DNA of 64,000 bases, from assembly GCA_017504945.1 (NCBI GenBank), contig JAFVQJ010000012.1, positions 1-64,000 of the forward strand, read 5' to 3'. The position numbers and the translations under genes are program-made. Shown here one piece after another: positions 10,475 to 52,884 of the stretch. Origin of the DNA: Clostridia bacterium. GTDB taxonomy: Bacteria > Bacillota > Clostridia > Oscillospirales > RGIG5299. The notes beneath the pieces were generated by a model. The model was not told the origin of the DNA. It saw only the letters and a program-made list of their open reading frames with translations, and did not search any database. Position 1 is the stretch's first letter; every line of letters begins with the position of its first letter.

Positions 10475-11875
10475 ATGAATAAACTTGTCTATGACATCCA
10501 CGACAAACCCAAGTTCGGCAGTATGCTCATCTTCGCGCTCCAGCAGGTCCTTGCGATACTTGCAGCTACCATCGCCGTTCCCGCCATCATCGGTAACGGT
10601 ATGAGCCCGTCCGCCGCTCTCTTCGGCGCAGGTATCGGCACAATCGTTTACCAGCTCTTCACCAAATTCAGAAGCCCCGTTTTCCTCGGCTCCTCATTCG
10701 CATTCATCGGCTCGATGTTTGCGGCATTCGGCGGCGCAGCTTCCGCTTCGGCAGGCTACGCAGGTCTTATCATCGGCGCAGCGTTTGCAGGTCTTGTTTA
10801 CGTTGTTATCGCTCTCGTCGTTAAGTTTGCGGGCGTTGCATGGATAAACAAGCTTATGCCCACCGTAGTTATCGGTCCCACCGTTGCTCTTATCGGTCTT
10901 TCTCTCGCGGTAAACGCGGTTAACGACCTTTTTGCAGGCAAGGTAATGGTCGAAAAGGTTGAGCAGGTCATTCAGGACGGCGCTATCGTCGATAAGGTCT
11001 CCATGGTTTCGGGCTGCAACCCCTATATCGCTCTTATCTGCGGTATCGTTACCCTTCTCACCGTTTTCCTCTTCTCCGTTTACGGCAAGAAGATGGCAAA
11101 GCTCATCCCCTTCATTCTGGGCATCATCGCAGGCTATATCGTTGCATCTATCTTCACCGTTATCGGTATCGCTACCGACAACGTTGCACTTCAGATAATC
11201 AACTTCGCAGCATTCAAGGATATGACTATATTCGCTGTTCCCGATTTCACCTTCGTAGAGGCTATCAAGGGCGTTAAGGATATAGACGGCTCCTTCATCG
11301 CCACTATTGCGGTTGCTTACATTCCCGTTGCTTTCGTTGTTTTTGCAGAGCATATCGCAGACCATAAGAACCTCTCCACCATCATCAATAGGGATCTTCT
11401 CGAGGAGCCCGGCTTGCACCGCACCTTACTTGGCGACGGCGTAGGCTCTTTTGCGGGCGCATTCTTCGGCGGTTGCCCCAACACCACCTACGGCGAATCT
11501 GTCGGTTGTGTTGCTATCACCAGAAACGCTTCGGTAATCACCATAACCACCGCGGCAATCATGTGCATCATCATCTCCTTCTTCGGTCCCTTCGTAACCT
11601 TCCTCTCGTCTATTCCCAACTGCGTAATGGGCGGCGTTTGCATTGCGCTCTACGGCTTCATCGCAGTCTCCGGTCTTAAGATGATCCAGCAGGTAGACCT
11701 CGGCGAAAGCAAAAACCTCTTCGTCGTTTCCGCTATCCTTATCCCCGGCATCGGCGGCTTGAAGCTCGTATTCGGCGAGATCGAGATAACCACCATCGCT
11801 TGTGCACTTATCCTCGGCATAATCACCAACATCCTTCTCAACAAATTTCAGAAGAAGGACACAGCGGAGAAATAA
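10475..11875 (+). CDS. uraA: Uracil permease, NCS2 family
   Basis: The 466-residue protein has about 14 hydrophobic segments and typical NCS2 features. It opens with ALQQVLAILAATIAVPAIIG, and GFIAVSGLKMIQ lies near the end of the core. The conserved NTTYGESVGCVAITRNASV (about 340-358), with the Glu that contacts uracil in this family, lies between them. It imports uracil across the cytoplasmic membrane by proton symport. The ribosome site TTGGAGG precedes ATG 10475. The stop is one base before the upp start, so transport and phosphoribosylation of uracil are translationally linked. The assignment to uracil rather than xanthine rests on sequence type and on the upp partner. Confidence 0.93.
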   Translation: MNKLVYDIHDKPKFGSMLIFALQQVLAILAATIAVPAIIGNGMSPSAALFGAGIGTIVYQLFTKFRSPVFLGSSFAFIGSMFAAFGGAASASAGYAGLIIGAAFAGLVYVVIALVVKFAGVAWINKLMPTVVIGPTVALIGLSLAVNAVNDLFAGKVMVEKVEQVIQDGAIVDKVSMVSGCNPYIALICGIVTLLTVFLFSVYGKKMAKLIPFILGIIAGYIVASIFTVIGIATDNVALQIINFAAFKDMTIFAVPDFTFVEAIKGVKDIDGSFIATIAVAYIPVAFVVFAEHIADHKNLSTIINRDLLEEPGLHRTLLGDGVGSFAGAFFGGCPNTTYGESVGCVAITRNASVITITTAAIMCIIISFFGPFVTFLSSIPNCVMGGVCIALYGFIAVSGLKMIQQVDLGESKNLFVVSAILIPGIGGLKLVFGEIEITTIACALILGIITNILLNKFQKKDTAEK

Positions 11876-11876
11876 A

Positions 11877-12518
11877 ATGAAAAGCTTTGATAACGTAACT
11901 ATCTTCAACCATCCGCTCATAAACCATAAGATCGCCATTCTTCGCGATGAAAAGACCAGCATGAAGGAATTCCGCGAGCTTATTGAGGAGATAACCACTC
12001 TTATGACCTACGACTGCCTCAAGGAAGGCGTTCCGATGGTTGAAAAAGAGGTCAAAACTCCCCTCGAGGTCTGCACCCAGACCGTCGTTAAGGATAACTC
12101 CATCGCGATAGTTCCCATTTTGCGCGCAGGTCTCGGTATGGTAAACGGTATTCACGTTCTCTTCCCCTCTGCAAAGGTCGGTCATATCGGTCTTTACAGA
12201 AACGAGGAGACTCTCGAGCCCTGTGAATACTACTGCAAGCTTCCCGAGGGCATTGAGGACAAGCTCGTTTTGCTCGTCGACCCGATGCTCGCAACAGGCG
12301 GCAGCGCATGCGACGCTATTGCAATGCTCAAAAAGCGCGGCTGCAAAAACATTCGTTTTATGGCTATAATCGGCGCTCCCGAGGGCATTGAAAGAGTAGC
12401 AGAGGCTCATCCCGACGTAAAGATCTACGTTTCCACTCTCGACAGATGCTTAAACGAGCACGGCTATATTCTCCCCGGTCTCGGCGATGCGGGCGACAGA
12501 ATATTCGGAACGAAATAA
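11877..12518 (+). CDS. upp: Uracil phosphoribosyltransferase
   Basis: It converts uracil and PRPP to UMP and pyrophosphate, the salvage step after import by the adjacent permease. The 213-residue length is normal. The PRPP-binding loop VDPMLATGGSA (134-144), the ILRAGLGM segment (81-88) and the C-terminal uracil-binding GYILPGLGDAGDR are all present. It starts one base after the uraA stop, with GCGGAG inside the uraA end as ribosome site. It ends at a strong bidirectional terminator (12533-12568). Nothing unusual is seen. Confidence 0.97.
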   Translation: MKSFDNVTIFNHPLINHKIAILRDEKTSMKEFRELIEEITTLMTYDCLKEGVPMVEKEVKTPLEVCTQTVVKDNSIAIVPILRAGLGMVNGIHVLFPSAKVGHIGLYRNEETLEPCEYYCKLPEGIEDKLVLLVDPMLATGGSACDAIAMLKKRGCKNIRFMAIIGAPEGIERVAEAHPDVKIYVSTLDRCLNEHGYILPGLGDAGDRIFGTK

Positions 12519-12577: not shown

Positions 12578-13414
12578 TTATTTAAAGCTCTTTTTGACGA
12601 GTATTGAAGCGATTATCAGTGCTGCTGCCATTACGCCGGTTGTAAGGAAGGTAAGGATTATATCCTGACCTCCGATCGAGAATACTGCGGAAACTGCGTT
12701 TATCACGCCGAAAGCCATAAGCCAAGCATATGCGGCAGATGCCTTTTCGATTTTAAGCTCTCCCTTTTCTACGCTCTTATATACCGATTTAGTCATAGCG
12801 TGAATGTATCTCCAGCTGAAGAGGTTTAAAACTATTCCTACAACTCCCACAACCGCAAATACTATGAATACGATCACCATAACAAAGGCGAATCCGATAT
12901 TTGCCGCTTCAAGCATTGCAAGTATTTCTGCCAACGAGGGTTCGTTTTCCGACGCCTCCATTATGTAGCCGAGCAATTCACTGTTGACGGTTGCGAACGA
13001 AAACAAAATTGCAAATATTACGCCAACTGCCGCAAATATCGAACAAACTACCATGTTTACAATATAGTTTGCATAAGTAACGCCGCTTATCCATTTAAGC
13101 TGACCTGCCTCGACCTTGTTGCTGCAGCCCTTTGCAAAGATTATCCACAAAAACACCGTTGCAAGTATAGAAAGCACGGGGAACGAGCCAAAAACCACGC
13201 TCAAGCCGCTTGACACCGATACGAGAATACAAACGGTGAGAAAGAGCGGATCCTTAATAATTCCAAGTATCTTCTCCGCAGCCGCGTTTACCGTTCTCGT
13301 GGCTTCAACGGGAGCTTCACAGCTGACAGCATCTTCCGTCACTGCCACCGCGCCGCATTTGGGACAAAACTTGAAGACCTCAACGTCCTCATAGCCGCAA
13401 TTATTACATTTCAT
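12578..13414 (-). CDS. Zinc-ribbon membrane protein of unknown function
   Basis: The 278-residue protein begins with a treble-clef zinc ribbon (CxxC at 3-6 and CPKC at 17-20) on the cytosolic side, then a short linker and about six transmembrane helices. Such zinc_ribbon_2 plus multi-helix proteins are common in Clostridia and are mostly uncharacterised. The ribosome site AAGGAGG lies about 8 bases before ATG 13414. A TTGCAA-17-TAAAAT promoter lies further upstream, so it is transcribed alone. It converges with upp on the terminator at 12533-12568. No catalytic or transport motif is visible. Confidence 0.7.
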   Translation of the reverse strand: MKCNNCGYEDVEVFKFCPKCGAVAVTEDAVSCEAPVEATRTVNAAAEKILGIIKDPLFLTVCILVSVSSGLSVVFGSFPVLSILATVFLWIIFAKGCSNKVEAGQLKWISGVTYANYIVNMVVCSIFAAVGVIFAILFSFATVNSELLGYIMEASENEPSLAEILAMLEAANIGFAFVMVIVFIVFAVVGVVGIVLNLFSWRYIHAMTKSVYKSVEKGELKIEKASAAYAWLMAFGVINAVSAVFSIGGQDIILTFLTTGVMAAALIIASILVKKSFK

Positions 13415-27368: not shown

Positions 27369-28058
27369 ATGACCACTTATCGTAAAAGGGTAACTTCCGT
27401 ATTTCTGATTATCATCGCTATATTCTGCTTTTCCACGGTTGTATTTGGAGCATATCGCACCGGTACTTCCGAAGAGATTTTAAAAAGTGCGGAACGCCTT
27501 TCTTCGTATTATGAAAAATTGGCGCTTAAAATATTTCTTTTCCCGATATATCAATTTTCAGATGAAAAAGCTCTTACCTTTGACGAAATTAAGAACGCCG
27601 GTGAGATAGTGGTCGTATTTGCCATTGATACAAATAAACTTAAGAATTTTTACTATTTTACCGTTGATATTGATTATTCTGATGAAAACAACGAAACTCT
27701 TGCTTTACCGCAAATAACTTCATCAAATCCGTATTTCATTATTCCGAACGAGCTTATTGGCACCGAGCTGAATTTTACCGTCAAATTCCGCAACGGAAGC
27801 GAAGAAATGAAATATCAGAAATTCAAAGGGGTAGTTACAAACAGTTCAACCTACAACGGAAACGGAGAGGAGATATATTATCCCCATTTTGAAATAAAAA
27901 ACCAATTTATTTCCGCTCCCTTAAGTTATTATTACAACCCCGAAACCGACGACTGGCAAACTTCCCCATACAAACCGCAATCCCCCTTCGAAGATCCGAG
28001 CAGTACAACAGCTTCAAAGCCTTCACCCGTAATTAAAAATTGCGGAAACCGAGGTTAA
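27369..28058 (+). CDS. Exported protein of unknown function ending in a CGN motif
   Basis: 229 residues. One N-terminal hydrophobic helix (VFLIIIAIFCFSTVVFG) acts as signal peptide or anchor. The rest is beta-rich with no known domain, then a Ser/Thr/Pro linker and the last residues KNCGNRG. A very similar end (KGGCGNKA after a Pro/Ser linker) occurs in the secreted protein at 51958. The ribosome site GAAAGAGGGGG precedes the ATG. The gene ends at the terminator 28064-28097, whose second arm is the start of the 75-bp direct repeat. Confidence 0.55.
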   Translation: MTTYRKRVTSVFLIIIAIFCFSTVVFGAYRTGTSEEILKSAERLSSYYEKLALKIFLFPIYQFSDEKALTFDEIKNAGEIVVVFAIDTNKLKNFYYFTVDIDYSDENNETLALPQITSSNPYFIIPNELIGTELNFTVKFRNGSEEMKYQKFKGVVTNSSTYNGNGEEIYYPHFEIKNQFISAPLSYYYNPETDDWQTSPYKPQSPFEDPSSTTASKPSPVIKNCGNRG

Positions 28059-28063
28059 TACGA

Positions 28064-28097
28064 AAAAGCTCCTTCGTTACGAAGGAGCTTTTATTTA
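28064..28097 (+). terminator. Terminator at the left edge of the direct repeat
   Basis: AAAAGCTCCTTCG (28064-28076) pairs with CGAAGGAGCTTTT (28080-28092), followed by ATTTATT. The second arm lies in the direct repeat; the copy at 32384 lacks the first arm. Confidence 0.9.
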
Positions 28098-28156
28098 TTC
28101 TTTATAAGGCGTTGATTTTTTCATCAGATCTCTGAAGTAGTTGATATCCTCAAGCG
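28082..28156. repeat. 75-bp perfect direct repeat, left copy
   Basis: It is identical base for base to 32384-32458 (4,302 bp apart). Minus-strand bases 28156-28095 repeat the last 20 or so codons of the membrane-protein gene at 32397-33077, including its stop. Bases 28082-28094 repeat what lies just beyond that stop. The rest of the gene is missing here, so this copy is a stranded 3' end. Confidence 0.95.
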
Positions 28157-28163
28157 TTTTTTC

Positions 28164-28193
28164 TTGACAGCGATTTTCGTTTTCGTGTATAAT
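28164..28193 (+). promoter_or_regulatory. Promoter of the fucosidase operon
   Basis: TTGACA (28164-28169), 18 bases, TATAAT (28188-28193). It begins eight bases inside the left repeat boundary, so the cassette carries its own strong promoter. Confidence 0.8.
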
Positions 28194-28243
28194 AAAAGAA
28201 AACAACCGTTTTTTACATTTCTATAAATCAGGAGATATGCATT

Positions 28244-29482
28244 ATGGCAATTCCCGCACCCAAGCCGTATATTGCGGCGTTTGAAAAGCTCGGTTTCGGA
28301 ATGTTTGTCCATTGGGGACTTTACTCACAGCTTGCAAGAGGCGAATGGACCTATCTGCTTCACAAAATGGATATGAAGGAATACGAAAAGCTGAAGGACA
28401 GCTTCACCGCAGAGGATTTCAACGCAGATGAGCTCGTTCTCACCGCAAAAAACGCAGGCTGCAAATATATAACCCTTACCACCCGTCATCACGAGGGCTT
28501 TTCTCTTTACGATACGAAGGGTCTTTCCGATTTCGACGTAATGCACTCCCCCTGCGGCAGAGATCTTGTTCGCGAATACGTTGACGCCTGCAACCGCCAC
28601 GGCATTTTGCCCTTCTTTTACCACACCACTCTTGATTGGCATCATCCCGACTTCGAAAACGATTTCGATAAATATCTCGAGTATCTCCGCAAAAGCGTAG
28701 AAATACTCTGCACCGAATACGGAAAAATAGGCGGTCTCTGGTTTGACGGAAACTGGTCAAGAAAGGGCGCCGACTGGAAGGAAAACGAGCTTTACGCCAC
28801 GATTCGCCGCCATCAGCCCGAGGCTATGATAATTAACAACACGGGGCTTAACGCAAGAGGAGAGGCGGGCAATCCCGAAATAGACTCGGTAACATTTGAG
28901 CAGGACCGTCCCACCCCTTTAAACCGCGAGGGAATGAAAAAGTATCTTGCGGCTGAAATGTGCGAAACGATAAACGACCATTGGGGAACGGGAAGCCTCG
29001 ACTTCAACAGCAAATCACCCGCAACGTTAATTGAAAACCTCTGCCTTTGCAGAAAGGTAGGCGCAAATTATCTTCTGAATATCGGTCCTCTTGCGCAGGG
29101 TGCGATCGACCCCTATCAGAAGGAGCTTCTGGCAGTCGTCGGCAAATGGCTTAATATCTTCGGCGAGGCAATATACGAGGGCAAGCCCTACGGCGCCGGC
29201 TCTGTAAACAGAAATTTCATATTAAAGGGTGAAGGCAAGCTTTATATCTTCTTTTTTAATCCCGGCAGAGAGGGCAGCGAAAACGTCACCGCAGGAAACA
29301 GCTACTTAGGTGCCTTTGCCTTCGGCAACGTGACCGACAAGGTAAAAAGGCTTTACTGGATGGATAACGGCGAAGAGCTTTCGTTTGCGCAAAAGGAAAA
29401 TATGCTTATGGCAAACTTTACGGGGCAGCCCTACGGCAAATCGTTTTGCGTGCGCATTGCAACAGCGGAGATAGAAAAATGA
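28244..29482 (+). CDS. Alpha-L-fucosidase, GH29, intracellular
   Basis: 412 residues with no signal peptide. The GH29 barrel signatures are present: FGMFVHWGLYS (18-28), YITLTTRHHEGFSLYD (75-90), the nucleophile Asp168 in GGLWFDGNW, and NYLLNIGPLAQG near 280. It releases terminal L-fucose with retention. The lack of a signal means it acts on oligosaccharides already imported. The length is close to the family minimum, with a short C-terminal beta domain. TCAGGAG lies before the ATG. Its stop codon overlaps the start of the next glycosidase (ATGA), so the two are translationally coupled, and both sit inside the direct-repeat cassette. Confidence 0.92.
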   Translation: MAIPAPKPYIAAFEKLGFGMFVHWGLYSQLARGEWTYLLHKMDMKEYEKLKDSFTAEDFNADELVLTAKNAGCKYITLTTRHHEGFSLYDTKGLSDFDVMHSPCGRDLVREYVDACNRHGILPFFYHTTLDWHHPDFENDFDKYLEYLRKSVEILCTEYGKIGGLWFDGNWSRKGADWKENELYATIRRHQPEAMIINNTGLNARGEAGNPEIDSVTFEQDRPTPLNREGMKKYLAAEMCETINDHWGTGSLDFNSKSPATLIENLCLCRKVGANYLLNIGPLAQGAIDPYQKELLAVVGKWLNIFGEAIYEGKPYGAGSVNRNFILKGEGKLYIFFFNPGREGSENVTAGNSYLGAFAFGNVTDKVKRLYWMDNGEELSFAQKENMLMANFTGQPYGKSFCVRIATAEIEK

Positions 29483-32310
29483 GTAAAACAATCGAAAAAT
29501 GGAAGCAAGTTATTTCAAATGATCTCAACGATTACCGTTCCATTCCCTTCTGGAGCTGGAACAACGAGCTTGACGAAGCAGAGCTTATAAAGCAGATAGA
29601 CGAAATGAAGTCCGTGGGCATTGGCGGCTTTATTATGCACGCCCGAATAGGTCTTAAGACCGAATATCTCGGCGAAAAATGGTTTTCCTGTATAAAAGCC
29701 TGCCTTGACCACGCAAAAAAGCTTAATATGAACGCCTGGATCTACGACGAGAACGGTTGGCCCTCGGGCTTCGTTGGCGGAAAGCTTCTTGAAAACGAAG
29801 ATTTTCGCGCCCGTTTTCTTGAATATGAGGTAATGGATTTCTTTGACGAGGGTGCCTTTGCCGTCTATAAAGAAACGGCAGAGGGATTTATTCGCATCAA
29901 AGCTCCCGAGGAAGGAGTTATTTCTTATCACACGGTTTATCTCAAAATAAGCCCCGCAAACACCGATATTTTAAATCCCGCAGTAGTTGACGCCTTTATT
30001 TCGGAGACCCACGAAAAGTATTACGAAAGATTTGCAGATTCATTCGGTAAGGAGCTTGTGGGCTTTTTTACCGACGAGCCGCAGTATTACCGTTGGGGTA
30101 CACCATATACTCCCATACTCGAAGCGGAATTCAAGAAAGACGGAAAAGACGTCCGCGACGGGCTGGTTTACCTCTTTTTAAAAGATGAGCGCGGCTACCC
30201 CTTCAGAGAAAAATATTTCCGCACCTTAAACGAGCTCTACACCGTCAACTTCTACAAAAGACTTTACGATTGGTGCGAGGAACACAACTGCAAGCTCACC
30301 GGTCATTCGGTTGACGAAATGCAGGTCTTCAGCCAGATGTGGGGCGGTGCAGCCTGTATGCCCACCTATGAATACGAGCACATTCCCGGCGTTGACTTTT
30401 TGGGAAGAAACTGCGCCTCGGAGCTTGCCCCAAGGCAACTCGGAAGCGTTGCAAGTCAGCTTGGCTTCCATCAGACCCTCACCGAGACCTTCGCCTGCTC
30501 CGGAAACGACGTGACCCTCAAGGAGCTAAAGAGCATCGGTGAATATCAGTTCTTCCACGGTGTTACACTTATGTGTCAGCACCTTTACCCCTATTCCATT
30601 TCCGCGCAGGGAAAAAGCGACCATCCTCCCGTTTTTTCAAGCCACAACAACTGGGGTGATGGCTTTAGCGTTTTCAACGAGCATTTCACCCGTTTGGGTT
30701 ACCTTATCTCAAACACCGAGGAAAGCTACGATGCCCTTATAATCCACCCCATGAGAAGCGTTTACCTTGATTATATAAGAAGCCTTGACCACAAAAGCGT
30801 TTGGGATCTTGAGGAAGAGTTCCAAAAGCTTCTTGAAGGCTACCGCCGCGTTGGCATAAGATACCATTTTGCCGACGAGCGCATTTTGGAGCGCCACGGA
30901 CGTGCAGAAGGGGATAAAATCGTTATAGGCAACTGCAGCTACGATACCGTAATCGTGCCAAAAATGAAAAATATCTCACGCAAAACCCTCGATATTCTCA
31001 ACGCCTACACAGGCAAGCTTCTTTGCTACGGCATACCCGAATACGTAAACGGCAAAAAGGAAGAGGTTATGCTTTCTTCAAGCATAACCGAAAGTGAGCT
31101 TTTTGAAAATCGCGGCGTTAAATTCACTTCACTTTCGGGCAACTGCGGCATTGCCACCCGAAAGGGCGAGCTCGGAAGCTATATTTTCGTTAAAAACTAT
31201 TCCCGCACAGAGCCCGCAACCTTTAACATTCCCGATATTTCAAAAAAATATCAGGCGCTTGACCTCACCTCTCTTACCCTCTCTCCCGTTTCCGATACCG
31301 TTACTCTCGGCAGCTCCGAAAGCTTAATTCTCGTTAATGAGCCCTCCGACAAAAAGGCACCCGAAAGCGAAACGGCAGTAGAAGTTACCGACAGCTTTAA
31401 GGTGACGGATATTTCCGATAACTATCTCGTCCTCGACTACGCAAGCTACAGCACCGACGGAATAAGCTTTTCGGAATATCTTCCTATGCCGTATCTTTTT
31501 GAAAATCTGCTTCGCGCCGATTATAAGGGCGACGTCTTTATAAAGCAGCGCTTTACAATTACCGAAAAGTTACCAATCACTCTTATTATGGAAAAAAGCC
31601 GTTACCGCTTTGTGCGCTTAAACGGCAAGGAGCTTGATTTCAATGATAGTGATTACGATATTTTCTTCACCGAGGCAGAGCTTGAAAATGCCTTGAAGAA
31701 AGGCGAAAACGAGCTTTATTACGCGGTGGATTATTTTCAGCACGAGGGCGTGCATTTTGCCCTTTTTGACCCTCTTGCCACAGAAAGCCTGCGAAACTGC
31801 CTGTATTACGATACCCACATCGAGCCCGTCTATTTAAAAGGGCGCTTTGCGGTAGATAAAAATCACACGCTTTCTCCCCTTACCGTCTTGCCTCCCATCA
31901 CCGACAGAATGTGCGATTTCGGTTTTCCCTTCTTCAAGGGCTATGTTGATATTGAGGGAACGGTGAACTACGACGGAAACGGCAGAATGGTCCTCAAGCT
32001 TGATGGACGCTTCCTCGTTTCAGAGGTCGCTGTTAACGGAAAACGAGCCGACCTGTATCTGGACGTTAAAAGGGATATCACCGACCTTCTTGCCGTCGGC
32101 GAAAACCGCATTAAAATAAGAGCTCGCTCAAGCCTTCGAAATCTGTTCGGGCCTCTTCATTTCGCACCCGAGGCAGAGCCTATGGCAGTAGGTCCATTCA
32201 ATTTCAATATGCGCGGCAGCTGGGAAAACGGCGTAAGCAGCGCCTACACCCACGATTACCAAAGCGTACCCTTTGGAGTTTCTGCTATTATACTGATAAC
32301 AAAAATATAA
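29479..32310 (+). CDS. Large GH106-like (alpha-L-rhamnosidase-type) glycoside hydrolase
   Basis: 943 residues from ATG 29479, which overlaps the fucosidase stop; an upstream in-frame ATG (29446) lies inside that gene and is rejected. The N-terminal barrel starts RSIPFWSWNNELDEAELIKQ, then GIGGFIMHAR and NAWIYDENGWPSGFVGGKLL (the YDExxxPSG signature of this group), then GFFTDEP with a likely catalytic acid. A glutaminase-like middle (SYDALIIHPMRSVYL) and a C-terminal jelly-roll sugar-binding domain of GH2 type follow. The order matches GH106-like enzymes, most of which are untested. There is no signal peptide. The paralogue at 60355 has the same plan. The substrate is probably a fucose-containing plant or host glycan, given its partner. 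Confidence 0.7.
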   Translation: MSKTIEKWKQVISNDLNDYRSIPFWSWNNELDEAELIKQIDEMKSVGIGGFIMHARIGLKTEYLGEKWFSCIKACLDHAKKLNMNAWIYDENGWPSGFVGGKLLENEDFRARFLEYEVMDFFDEGAFAVYKETAEGFIRIKAPEEGVISYHTVYLKISPANTDILNPAVVDAFISETHEKYYERFADSFGKELVGFFTDEPQYYRWGTPYTPILEAEFKKDGKDVRDGLVYLFLKDERGYPFREKYFRTLNELYTVNFYKRLYDWCEEHNCKLTGHSVDEMQVFSQMWGGAACMPTYEYEHIPGVDFLGRNCASELAPRQLGSVASQLGFHQTLTETFACSGNDVTLKELKSIGEYQFFHGVTLMCQHLYPYSISAQGKSDHPPVFSSHNNWGDGFSVFNEHFTRLGYLISNTEESYDALIIHPMRSVYLDYIRSLDHKSVWDLEEEFQKLLEGYRRVGIRYHFADERILERHGRAEGDKIVIGNCSYDTVIVPKMKNISRKTLDILNAYTGKLLCYGIPEYVNGKKEEVMLSSSITESELFENRGVKFTSLSGNCGIATRKGELGSYIFVKNYSRTEPATFNIPDISKKYQALDLTSLTLSPVSDTVTLGSSESLILVNEPSDKKAPESETAVEVTDSFKVTDISDNYLVLDYASYSTDGISFSEYLPMPYLFENLLRADYKGDVFIKQRFTITEKLPITLIMEKSRYRFVRLNGKELDFNDSDYDIFFTEAELENALKKGENELYYAVDYFQHEGVHFALFDPLATESLRNCLYYDTHIEPVYLKGRFAVDKNHTLSPLTVLPPITDRMCDFGFPFFKGYVDIEGTVNYDGNGRMVLKLDGRFLVSEVAVNGKRADLYLDVKRDITDLLAVGENRIKIRARSSLRNLFGPLHFAPEAEPMAVGPFNFNMRGSWENGVSSAYTHDYQSVPFGVSAIILITKI

Positions 32311-32313
32311 TTA

Positions 32314-32350
32314 AAATCCCGAAATTCGCAATGAATTTCGGGATTTTTTT
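32314..32350 (+). terminator. Terminator of the fucosidase operon
   Basis: AAATCCCGAAATTC pairs with GAATTTCGGGATTT around GCAAT, followed by TTTT. It lies inside the cassette, 34 bases before the right repeat. Confidence 0.9.
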
Positions 32351-32383
32351 ACTCAACTTGTATCACAAGGCATATTGTTTCAC

Positions 32384-32458
32384 AAGGAGCTTTTATTTAT
32401 TCTTTATAAGGCGTTGATTTTTTCATCAGATCTCTGAAGTAGTTGATATCCTCAAGCG
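32384..32458. repeat. 75-bp perfect direct repeat, right copy
   Basis: Identical to 28082-28156. This copy is the natural 3' end of the minus-strand gene at 32397-33077. The terminator hairpin present at the left copy is cut here at its midpoint (only AAGGAGCTTTT remains). Confidence 0.95.
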
Positions 32459-33077
32459 CCATATCTGCGCGAAGCCTTGCAATGAAGGCAAAAAGTATGA
32501 AAAATACGCCGTCAACAAAGCAGGAAACGGCAAGCAGCCAGAGGTTTTCAAGTCCCTCTCCCGCAGTAAGACAGAAGATGAGGGTGAGCAAAAACCAGAG
32601 CGCGAAAAACGCCGCAAAGACTATGCCGCCGATAAAGGTCACCCTTTTGTAGATATTCAAGAACCTTTCACCCTCGAAAAGCGACATAAACAGCGTTATA
32701 ATAAGAAACGCAGCCGATGCGGTAAAGACCGCATACATCACCGTGTTAAAGCCGCCCTCGAGTATCTTTCCTATCTCGCTCTCGTTAAAAACGCCGATAT
32801 AGCAGATAAAGCGGAATATTGCAAGCACGATGGATGCAAGCAGCACCGGCACCTTGAATCTCGACTTATTCGACCACACCGCAGCGGTAAGCAGAAATGC
32901 GGCGGCAGGCATCAAAAGAAGCTGAAGCAAAACGCCGTCGCTGTCCGACACGCCGAGATATCCTATTCGGTACATCTCCATTATCGGCTCCTTGAAATAG
33001 GCAAGCGCCACGGCACCCACCGAAATCAAAAGATATGCGGCTGAGGCTATTAATAAAATCAGGCTTTTCTTTTTCAT
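32397..33077 (-). CDS. Six-helix membrane protein downstream of pfkA
   Basis: 226 residues with six predicted transmembrane helices (about 5-27, 52-70, 75-96, 107-131, 149-170, 177-200) and a cytosolic tail LEDINYFRDLMKKSTPYKE. It begins two bases after the pfkA stop and so is expressed with it. No motif or family is recognised. Its last 62 bases are duplicated at 28095-28156, on the far side of the glycosidase cassette, so its 3' end was the site of an insertion or recombination. It has no proper terminator of its own now, because the hairpin stayed with the left copy. Confidence 0.75.
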   Translation of the reverse strand: MKKKSLILLIASAAYLLISVGAVALAYFKEPIMEMYRIGYLGVSDSDGVLLQLLLMPAAAFLLTAAVWSNKSRFKVPVLLASIVLAIFRFICYIGVFNESEIGKILEGGFNTVMYAVFTASAAFLIITLFMSLFEGERFLNIYKRVTFIGGIVFAAFFALWFLLTLIFCLTAGEGLENLWLLAVSCFVDGVFFILFAFIARLRADMALEDINYFRDLMKKSTPYKE

Positions 33078-51921: not shown

Positions 51922-51957
51922 TTTATCAGTTTGAATAATTTTGAAAGGACATTCAAT

Positions 51958-52884
51958 ATGAAAAAGAAAATCATAGCATGCACTCTTGCTTTGGCTCTTC
52001 TCATCTCCTCCTTTTCCTTTTTGAACGTTTCCGCCGCAAAGGCAACTCTTCAGAATTGGAAGATCTACTGCTCGGAGATAGACGGCGACAACTACACCTA
52101 TTTTGACGACGAGGAATTCGATATCTCCGTTGATGCAAACGGCAGGATCGACGTCGATGCTCCTCAGGGCTGGTGGCCCGCTATGCTTGCCGTCAAAAAC
52201 GATAAGGTCGCCATCGACGGCATTGAGGTAAAATACGGCTCCACTATCAAGGACGCAGGCTGGGGCGGTCACGGCTTCAACGTGGGACTTTTGAGCGCAA
52301 AAATAACCGATCTCCCCGAATACAGGCTGTTTGACGGTCTTGCAGGTGCCATCGAGGATCAGGATATCGACAACGGAATAAAGGGCGTTGAGATTCAGGC
52401 TCACGGCGAAAACGACGGTGCCTCAACCAAGCTCGGAAGATTTCTCATCTGGGTCTACGGTGTTGGCAGGACCGACGAGAACGGTAACGCATTAAGCGGC
52501 ATAAACGACAGAAAGGGCTATTATTTCACCTCTCTTGAGCTTCCCGCCGCTTCGGAATACACCTTCACTCTCGTTCCCGACGACACCTACGGCTACGTAA
52601 TAAACATAAACGGCGTTGAATTCAGAACCGACGACGACGGCGATACCGTTGATCTTAACGTTCTTAAGGAGCTTACCGACGGCGCATATCTCTCGATCGG
52701 CGCGTTTACCCCCGGCGACAACAATACCGGCGGTATGTCGATAACCTCGGTAAACGGCGTAAGCGCAGAGGCACCCAACGAGAACGCTCCGACCTCAAGC
52801 GAGCCCGCTCCCTCCAAGCCCGAGTCCTCTATCACCATCAATCCTCCCGCCGAAAATAAAGGCGGCTGCGGAAATAAAGCGTAA
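51958..52884 (+). CDS. Secreted protein of unknown function ending in a CGN motif
   Basis: 308 residues from ATG 51958, which follows GAAAGGA; an in-frame ATG at 51931 has no site. A clear signal peptide (IIACTLALALLISSFSFLNV, cut near VSAA) leads to a beta-rich body of about 230 residues (YFDDEEFDISVDANGRIDVD, YGYVINI). This resembles laminin-G/concanavalin-like binding domains, but I cannot name it. A Pro/Ser/Glu linker follows, and the end is ENKGGCGNKA. It could be a surface carbohydrate-binding protein. There is no membrane anchor after the Cys-Gly motif. Confidence 0.6.
   Translation: MKKKIIACTLALALLISSFSFLNVSAAKATLQNWKIYCSEIDGDNYTYFDDEEFDISVDANGRIDVDAPQGWWPAMLAVKNDKVAIDGIEVKYGSTIKDAGWGGHGFNVGLLSAKITDLPEYRLFDGLAGAIEDQDIDNGIKGVEIQAHGENDGASTKLGRFLIWVYGVGRTDENGNALSGINDRKGYYFTSLELPAASEYTFTLVPDDTYGYVININGVEFRTDDDGDTVDLNVLKELTDGAYLSIGAFTPGDNNTGGMSITSVNGVSAEAPNENAPTSSEPAPSKPESSITINPPAENKGGCGNKA

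Follow-up and report, generated by a model that had tools for sequence, protein, structure and literature searches.

How does an operon that carries no recombinase enter a chromosome at the end of a gene and leave that gene intact? The question is raised by a locus of the uncultured, gut-type Clostridia bacterium GCA_017504945.1, a genome of metagenome-assembled appearance (33 contigs, 86% complete), from which a stretch of 64,000 nt was analyzed (contig JAFVQJ010000012.1, positions 1 to 64,000; the window). The answer that we consider probable is insertion with long target duplication, in which incoming or ectopic DNA would have been joined illegitimately, without a dedicated recombinase.

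The direct repeat and the cassette it brackets

The segments 28082-28156 and 32384-32458 were identical over 75 bp, as the initial annotation had claimed, and constituted the sole direct repeat of at least 35 nt within the 64-kb window. Exactly two copies of the sequence were present in the genome assembly, which is 86% complete. The right copy (32384-32458) contains the true 3' end of an intact gene for a 226-aa membrane protein (ORF at 32397-33077, reverse strand) and 13 bp beyond it. The left copy (28082-28156) consists of the final 62 bp of the same gene and the 13 bp past its stop, and it matched residues 204-226 of the membrane protein and nothing further, in agreement with its earlier description as a stranded duplicate. 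Both repeat ends were abrupt and the adjoining terminator was one-sided. This bidirectional intrinsic terminator (28064-28092), located between convergent genes by pattern scan and folding, forms a hairpin of 12-13 pairs (-17.7 kcal/mol, z -4.9), of which the right arm alone falls within the repeat. No terminator fold was obtained for the 51 nt that lead out of the right copy (-1.8 kcal/mol, z 0.4). The presence of both arms at the left copy and of a single arm at the right copy, which the initial annotation had also noticed, suggests that the ancestral order was probably gene 27369, terminator and membrane gene, as proposed there. Gene 27369 (27369-28058, forward strand) encodes a 229-aa protein with a hydrophobic, signal-like start and has a GC content of 38%.

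The inserted segment without the two repeat copies occupies 28157-32383 (4,227 bp; repeat unit 4,302 bp) and is a complete transcription unit comprising a promoter, two genes and a terminator. The consensus promoter TTGACA-18-TATAAT (28164-28193, forward strand), with 12/12 sigma-70-type matches and an 18-bp spacer, begins 8 bp inside the left boundary. The first gene (28244-29482, forward strand) encodes a GH29 alpha-L-fucosidase family protein of 412 aa, with a PF01120 score of 218 bits against a cut-off of 25.2 (E 3.1e-64); its best relatives were up to 70-75% identical and belonged to other families. It overlaps the second gene (29479-32310, forward strand) by ATGA at 29479-29482. The 943-aa product of the latter is referred to as GH106-related (alpha-L-rhamnosidase-like) and not as a member of GH106, because its PF17132 score of 17.6 bits (E 0.0015) is under the gathering cut-off of 29; its match to the NCBIfam alpha-L-rhamnosidase model (E 7e-7) was below cut-off as well. 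Relatives of this protein were 42-43% identical, and no match was found among solved structures. The unit is closed by a terminator with a 15-pair stem at 32313-32347 (-19.6 kcal/mol, z -7.2). The cassette as first described stands with respect to its own promoter, coupled genes and terminator; Pfam places its fucosidase in GH29, and its second gene is to be called GH106-related. Only the two enzyme-like genes lie inside and, as noted before, no recombinase does.

Several other origins were considered for the cassette. A foreign composition was rejected, as its codon usage was native-like and resembled that of the neighboring genes; in the same comparison it was gene 27369 that was the compositional outlier. 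The insert begins upstream of the -35 box, which makes it DNA-based and excludes a retrocopy of an mRNA. A mobile cassette borne by a plasmid or phage was likewise rejected, since there was no match to plasmids or viral contigs. No exact repeat brackets the gene at any of 36 GH29 homologue loci in public genomes, or in any of the 20 stretches from the order's genomes that surround GH29 or GH106-like relatives.

These data also bear on the main rival to an illegitimate insertion, in which a circle holding the operon and the 75 bp, for example one that had left this very site in a different cell, recombined homologously with a single chromosomal copy. Such an event gives exactly the observed structure, 75 bp is in principle enough homology for RecA, and the native-like codon usage is compatible with a donor from this species or a close one. 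However, the segment was found in no plasmid or viral record, and the circle only shifts the question to how the 75 bp came to accompany the operon in the first place. We consider this route unlikely.

The locus in a congener

The gene order pfkA, membrane gene, dacF is shared by the only genome of the same genus that was compared (G001), which has no cassette between the last two; the membrane-protein orthologue, which is followed by dacF, was 38% identical. No orthologue of this protein was found in the genome_contigs collection. Together with the repeat, the cassette-free interval between the membrane gene and dacF supports the initial proposal that an operon was inserted at the 3' end of the gene and left it intact. 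Gene 27369 was absent anywhere in G001, and the locus is therefore not a strict single-copy empty-site control. Of the empty site expected by the initial annotation around pfkA, the membrane gene and gene 27369, the comparison thus provided the absence of the cassette, but not a clean single-copy site.

An adjacent GH29/GH106-like pair is present on another contig of G001, with identities of 47% and 43%. As the best relatives of the GH29 protein (70-75%) occur in other families, these identities are read as indicating a horizontal or paralogous history.

The congener also weighs on homology-facilitated illegitimate recombination, by which transforming DNA of a relative would have paired through homology at one end only, while illegitimate joining of its other end left part of the homologous gene end behind as a copy. 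This process is documented in competent bacteria (PMC3240628, PMC2884548) and has been proposed for displaced effector genes (PMC5361080), and ComEC is present in the genome. It is close to insertion with long target duplication and differs from it mainly in the donor, which must already have the operon after the membrane gene; this is not so in the congener, and we regard this variant as very improbable.

Candidate scars elsewhere in the genome

Stretches of this genome, designated by L-numbers and totalling 1.13 Mb, were compared with control stretches of other genomes, totalling 1.52 Mb. We scored isolated exact repeats of at least 32 nt that lie 0.6-8 kb apart and have abrupt ends and no flanking similarity. 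The rule returned 11 repeats in this genome against 1 in the controls. The window had been selected for its repeat before this comparison, and the controls are other assemblies. Because the window had prompted the search, it was omitted from the contrast; without it the excess over the controls persists but is modest. Inspection by hand assigned several of the 11 to paralogues or dispersed repeats and left about four good gene-end cases, the convincing ones being the window, L070, L112 and L116. Their repeats (35, 37, 39 and 75 bp) have unrelated sequences and no ends in common; varying lengths without shared ends are what a long target duplication implies. In L070, a 39-bp repeat at the start of a spoVT-like gene brackets a 3.5-kb insert, whose genes were recognized by sequence inspection as signal-peptidase-like and TasA-like.

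Independent evidence came from two of these loci, L116 and L112. In L116, a 37-bp repeat surrounds a one-gene insert of 0.7 kb (repeat unit 703 bp). The 140-aa gene lies beside a purine-nucleoside-phosphorylase-like gene (PNP) and has a paralogue in L084, in which the segment 12785-12883 is contiguous; in L116 the same segment is split. The right copy, which is attached to the gene, aligns with L084 12785-12872 and the left, stranded copy with 12836-12883; the two alignments share precisely the 37 bp of the repeat. The target was thus duplicated and did not pre-exist as two copies. Read through the paralogue, this demonstrates a target duplication around the insert, with the repeat single in the uninserted state, as a long target duplication demands. 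The PNP gene was not found in the congener, so that no empty site is readable there for L116.

In L112, a two-gene insert of 3.26 kb is bracketed by 35 bp that represent the terminator after an M18-aminopeptidase-like gene. In the congener the M18 gene and a convergent small gene are adjacent, about 25 bp apart, and judged from this adjacency the site is the empty site of the L112 insert. The terminator and the promoter-like module of 200 bp that follows it recur before other genes in L084 and L131; the repeat may therefore be part of a dispersed terminator or element family and need not be a target duplication. Copies of the ~200-bp module were observed before different genes in L112 (11497-11738), L084 (12168-12409), L131 (10480-10720), L116 (14112-13927) and L135 (17104-17221), and the same CCCCGCCTC...GAGGCGGGG terminator precedes it at three of the five loci. 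It is possible that the modules form a family of terminator-promoter cassettes.

The remaining repeats were set aside as tandem paralogues (L126, L136, L144, L145, L128 and L114), as dispersed repeats (L077, L084 and L142) or as weak cases (L119, with a shared protein tail, and L112 16628/18945, within a coding region). The neighboring genes of L119 have an identical 46-bp 3' end (12428-12473 and 13362-13407) encoding the tail AAFIFIKKKKA, and the tail sequence upstream is common to other loci, suggesting tail exchange. A tRNA case in L076 was set aside for its short spacing: a tRNA-like 3' end with its terminator is duplicated exactly over 60 bp (10740-10799 and 10922-10981), 182 bp away, with another tRNA-like fragment between the copies. 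A dispersed hairpin repeat of GTGATAT type, 130-370 bp long, was observed in L084 (8347-8712 and 12870-13238) and in L071, L073, L078, L080, L083, L086, L114, L132 and L136; in at least one case it apparently splits a terminator.

Two further explanations were weighed. The initial annotation had recognized in the locus the geometry of an integrase-type insertion. Gene 3' ends are classic attachment sites, and integrative elements at such ends likewise leave a restored gene end and a flanking direct repeat. The 75 bp would then be an attachment site, either for a tyrosine or serine integrase that acts in trans or for an island that is now without its integrase. The cassette differs from such elements in having neither an integrase nor a shared attachment site: the 75-bp sequence was found nowhere else in this genome, and its core in no viral contig. 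A search of the 86% complete genome for the Phage_integrase domain gave a single match, in a 307-aa open frame of Xer-like size, and the other scars have unrelated repeats within the 35-75 bp range, one of them at the 5' end of a gene. The variable repeat length, the unrelated sequences, the recombinase-free insert and the single match of Xer size together argue against site-specific integration, which we hold to be improbable, and the integrase interpretation was not supported.

An assembly or strain-mixture artefact, in which two strains were fused at the repeat within the contig or the repeat was wrongly doubled, is conceivable for a source that looks metagenome-assembled. However, the repeats vary in length between loci (35-75 bp), which a fixed assembly word would not do, the two junctions differ in sequence from each other and from those elsewhere, and an independent paralogue accounts for the duplication at the PNP locus. 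We consider an artefact quite improbable.

Probable origin and meaning of the insertion

In the favored insertion with long target duplication, the GH29/GH106-related operon would have entered where two convergent genes meet at their terminator, with a duplication of 75 bp of the target: the final 62 bp of the membrane gene and the 13 bp past its stop. This duplication would have left both neighbors intact, and the insertion appears recent because the repeats are perfect. We infer the source of the DNA and the joining chemistry from this structure: a replication fork may have switched template and returned upstream of its departure point, or a staggered break may have been filled in. Both would yield the same structure and are indistinguishable here. 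End joining by Ku was rejected, as no Ku was found in the genome (86% complete); this, the presence of ComEC and the native-like codon usage of the cassette were counted in favor of the illegitimate insertion. Recombination between the repeats would be expected to remove 4,302 bp precisely, without damage to the remaining sequence, and this excision, foreseen in the initial annotation, is a prediction from the repeat layout.

The name insertion with long target duplication goes back to work on Helicobacter pylori (Nobusato et al., 2000, Gene 259:99-108), to which PMC1643837, PMC3031569 and PMC4978471 refer. The pattern is described as often associated with restriction-modification genes (PMC1643837) and the duplications as long and variable (PMC3031569). 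As in the insertions of Nobusato et al., a gene unit is present in one genome, the direct repeat is long, variable and derived from the target, and no known recombinase is involved. In contrast to the restriction-modification cargo of H. pylori, the insert described here is a sugar-degradation operon, and several candidate scars, mostly at terminators, occur in one uncultured Clostridia genome. Variable segments flanked by repeats are widespread among bacteria: repeats flank 10-18% of small variable loci in three species, which was attributed to illegitimate recombination (PMC2884548); those repeats are mostly <30 bp, whereas here 35-75 bp surround inserts of one to several genes. As both types of insertion are already known, the new aspects are the unusual cargo and the fact that such scars apparently recur in a single genome. 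Minimal mobile elements of Neisseria are similar in being gene cassettes without mobility genes between conserved neighbors; they are exchanged by homologous recombination in the flanking genes, for which no repeat is needed.

It has long been asked how operons free of mobility genes reach new sites in a chromosome. Several fresh insertions with readable boundaries and duplicated targets offer natural junctions at which template switching, staggered-break fill-in and one-sided homology can be weighed. The data suggest that insertions are tolerated at terminators between convergent genes. A further reading, which seems rather unlikely, is that an undescribed process is at work in this lineage: it would place self-contained transcription units at gene ends or intrinsic terminators, each time with a target duplication of variable length (35-75 bp), and would spread metabolic and secreted-protein genes that have no recombinase of their own.

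A separate observation concerns the product of gene 27369. It is one of ten predicted proteins with a conserved C-terminal GGCGN(K/N)(A/G) or NCGNRG, in most cases after a Pro/Ser-rich stretch and in several combined with a signal-peptide-like start. They are encoded in the window (27369-28058 and 51931-52884), L070 (9363-10214 and 15958-16704), L084 (7421-8347), L127 (14353-15234), L144 (1701-2501, 12831-13736 and 14139-15035) and L147 (13513-15021). The motif is possibly an undescribed sorting or anchoring signal, and a protein of the congener has a similar C-terminal end, SSCGNNG.
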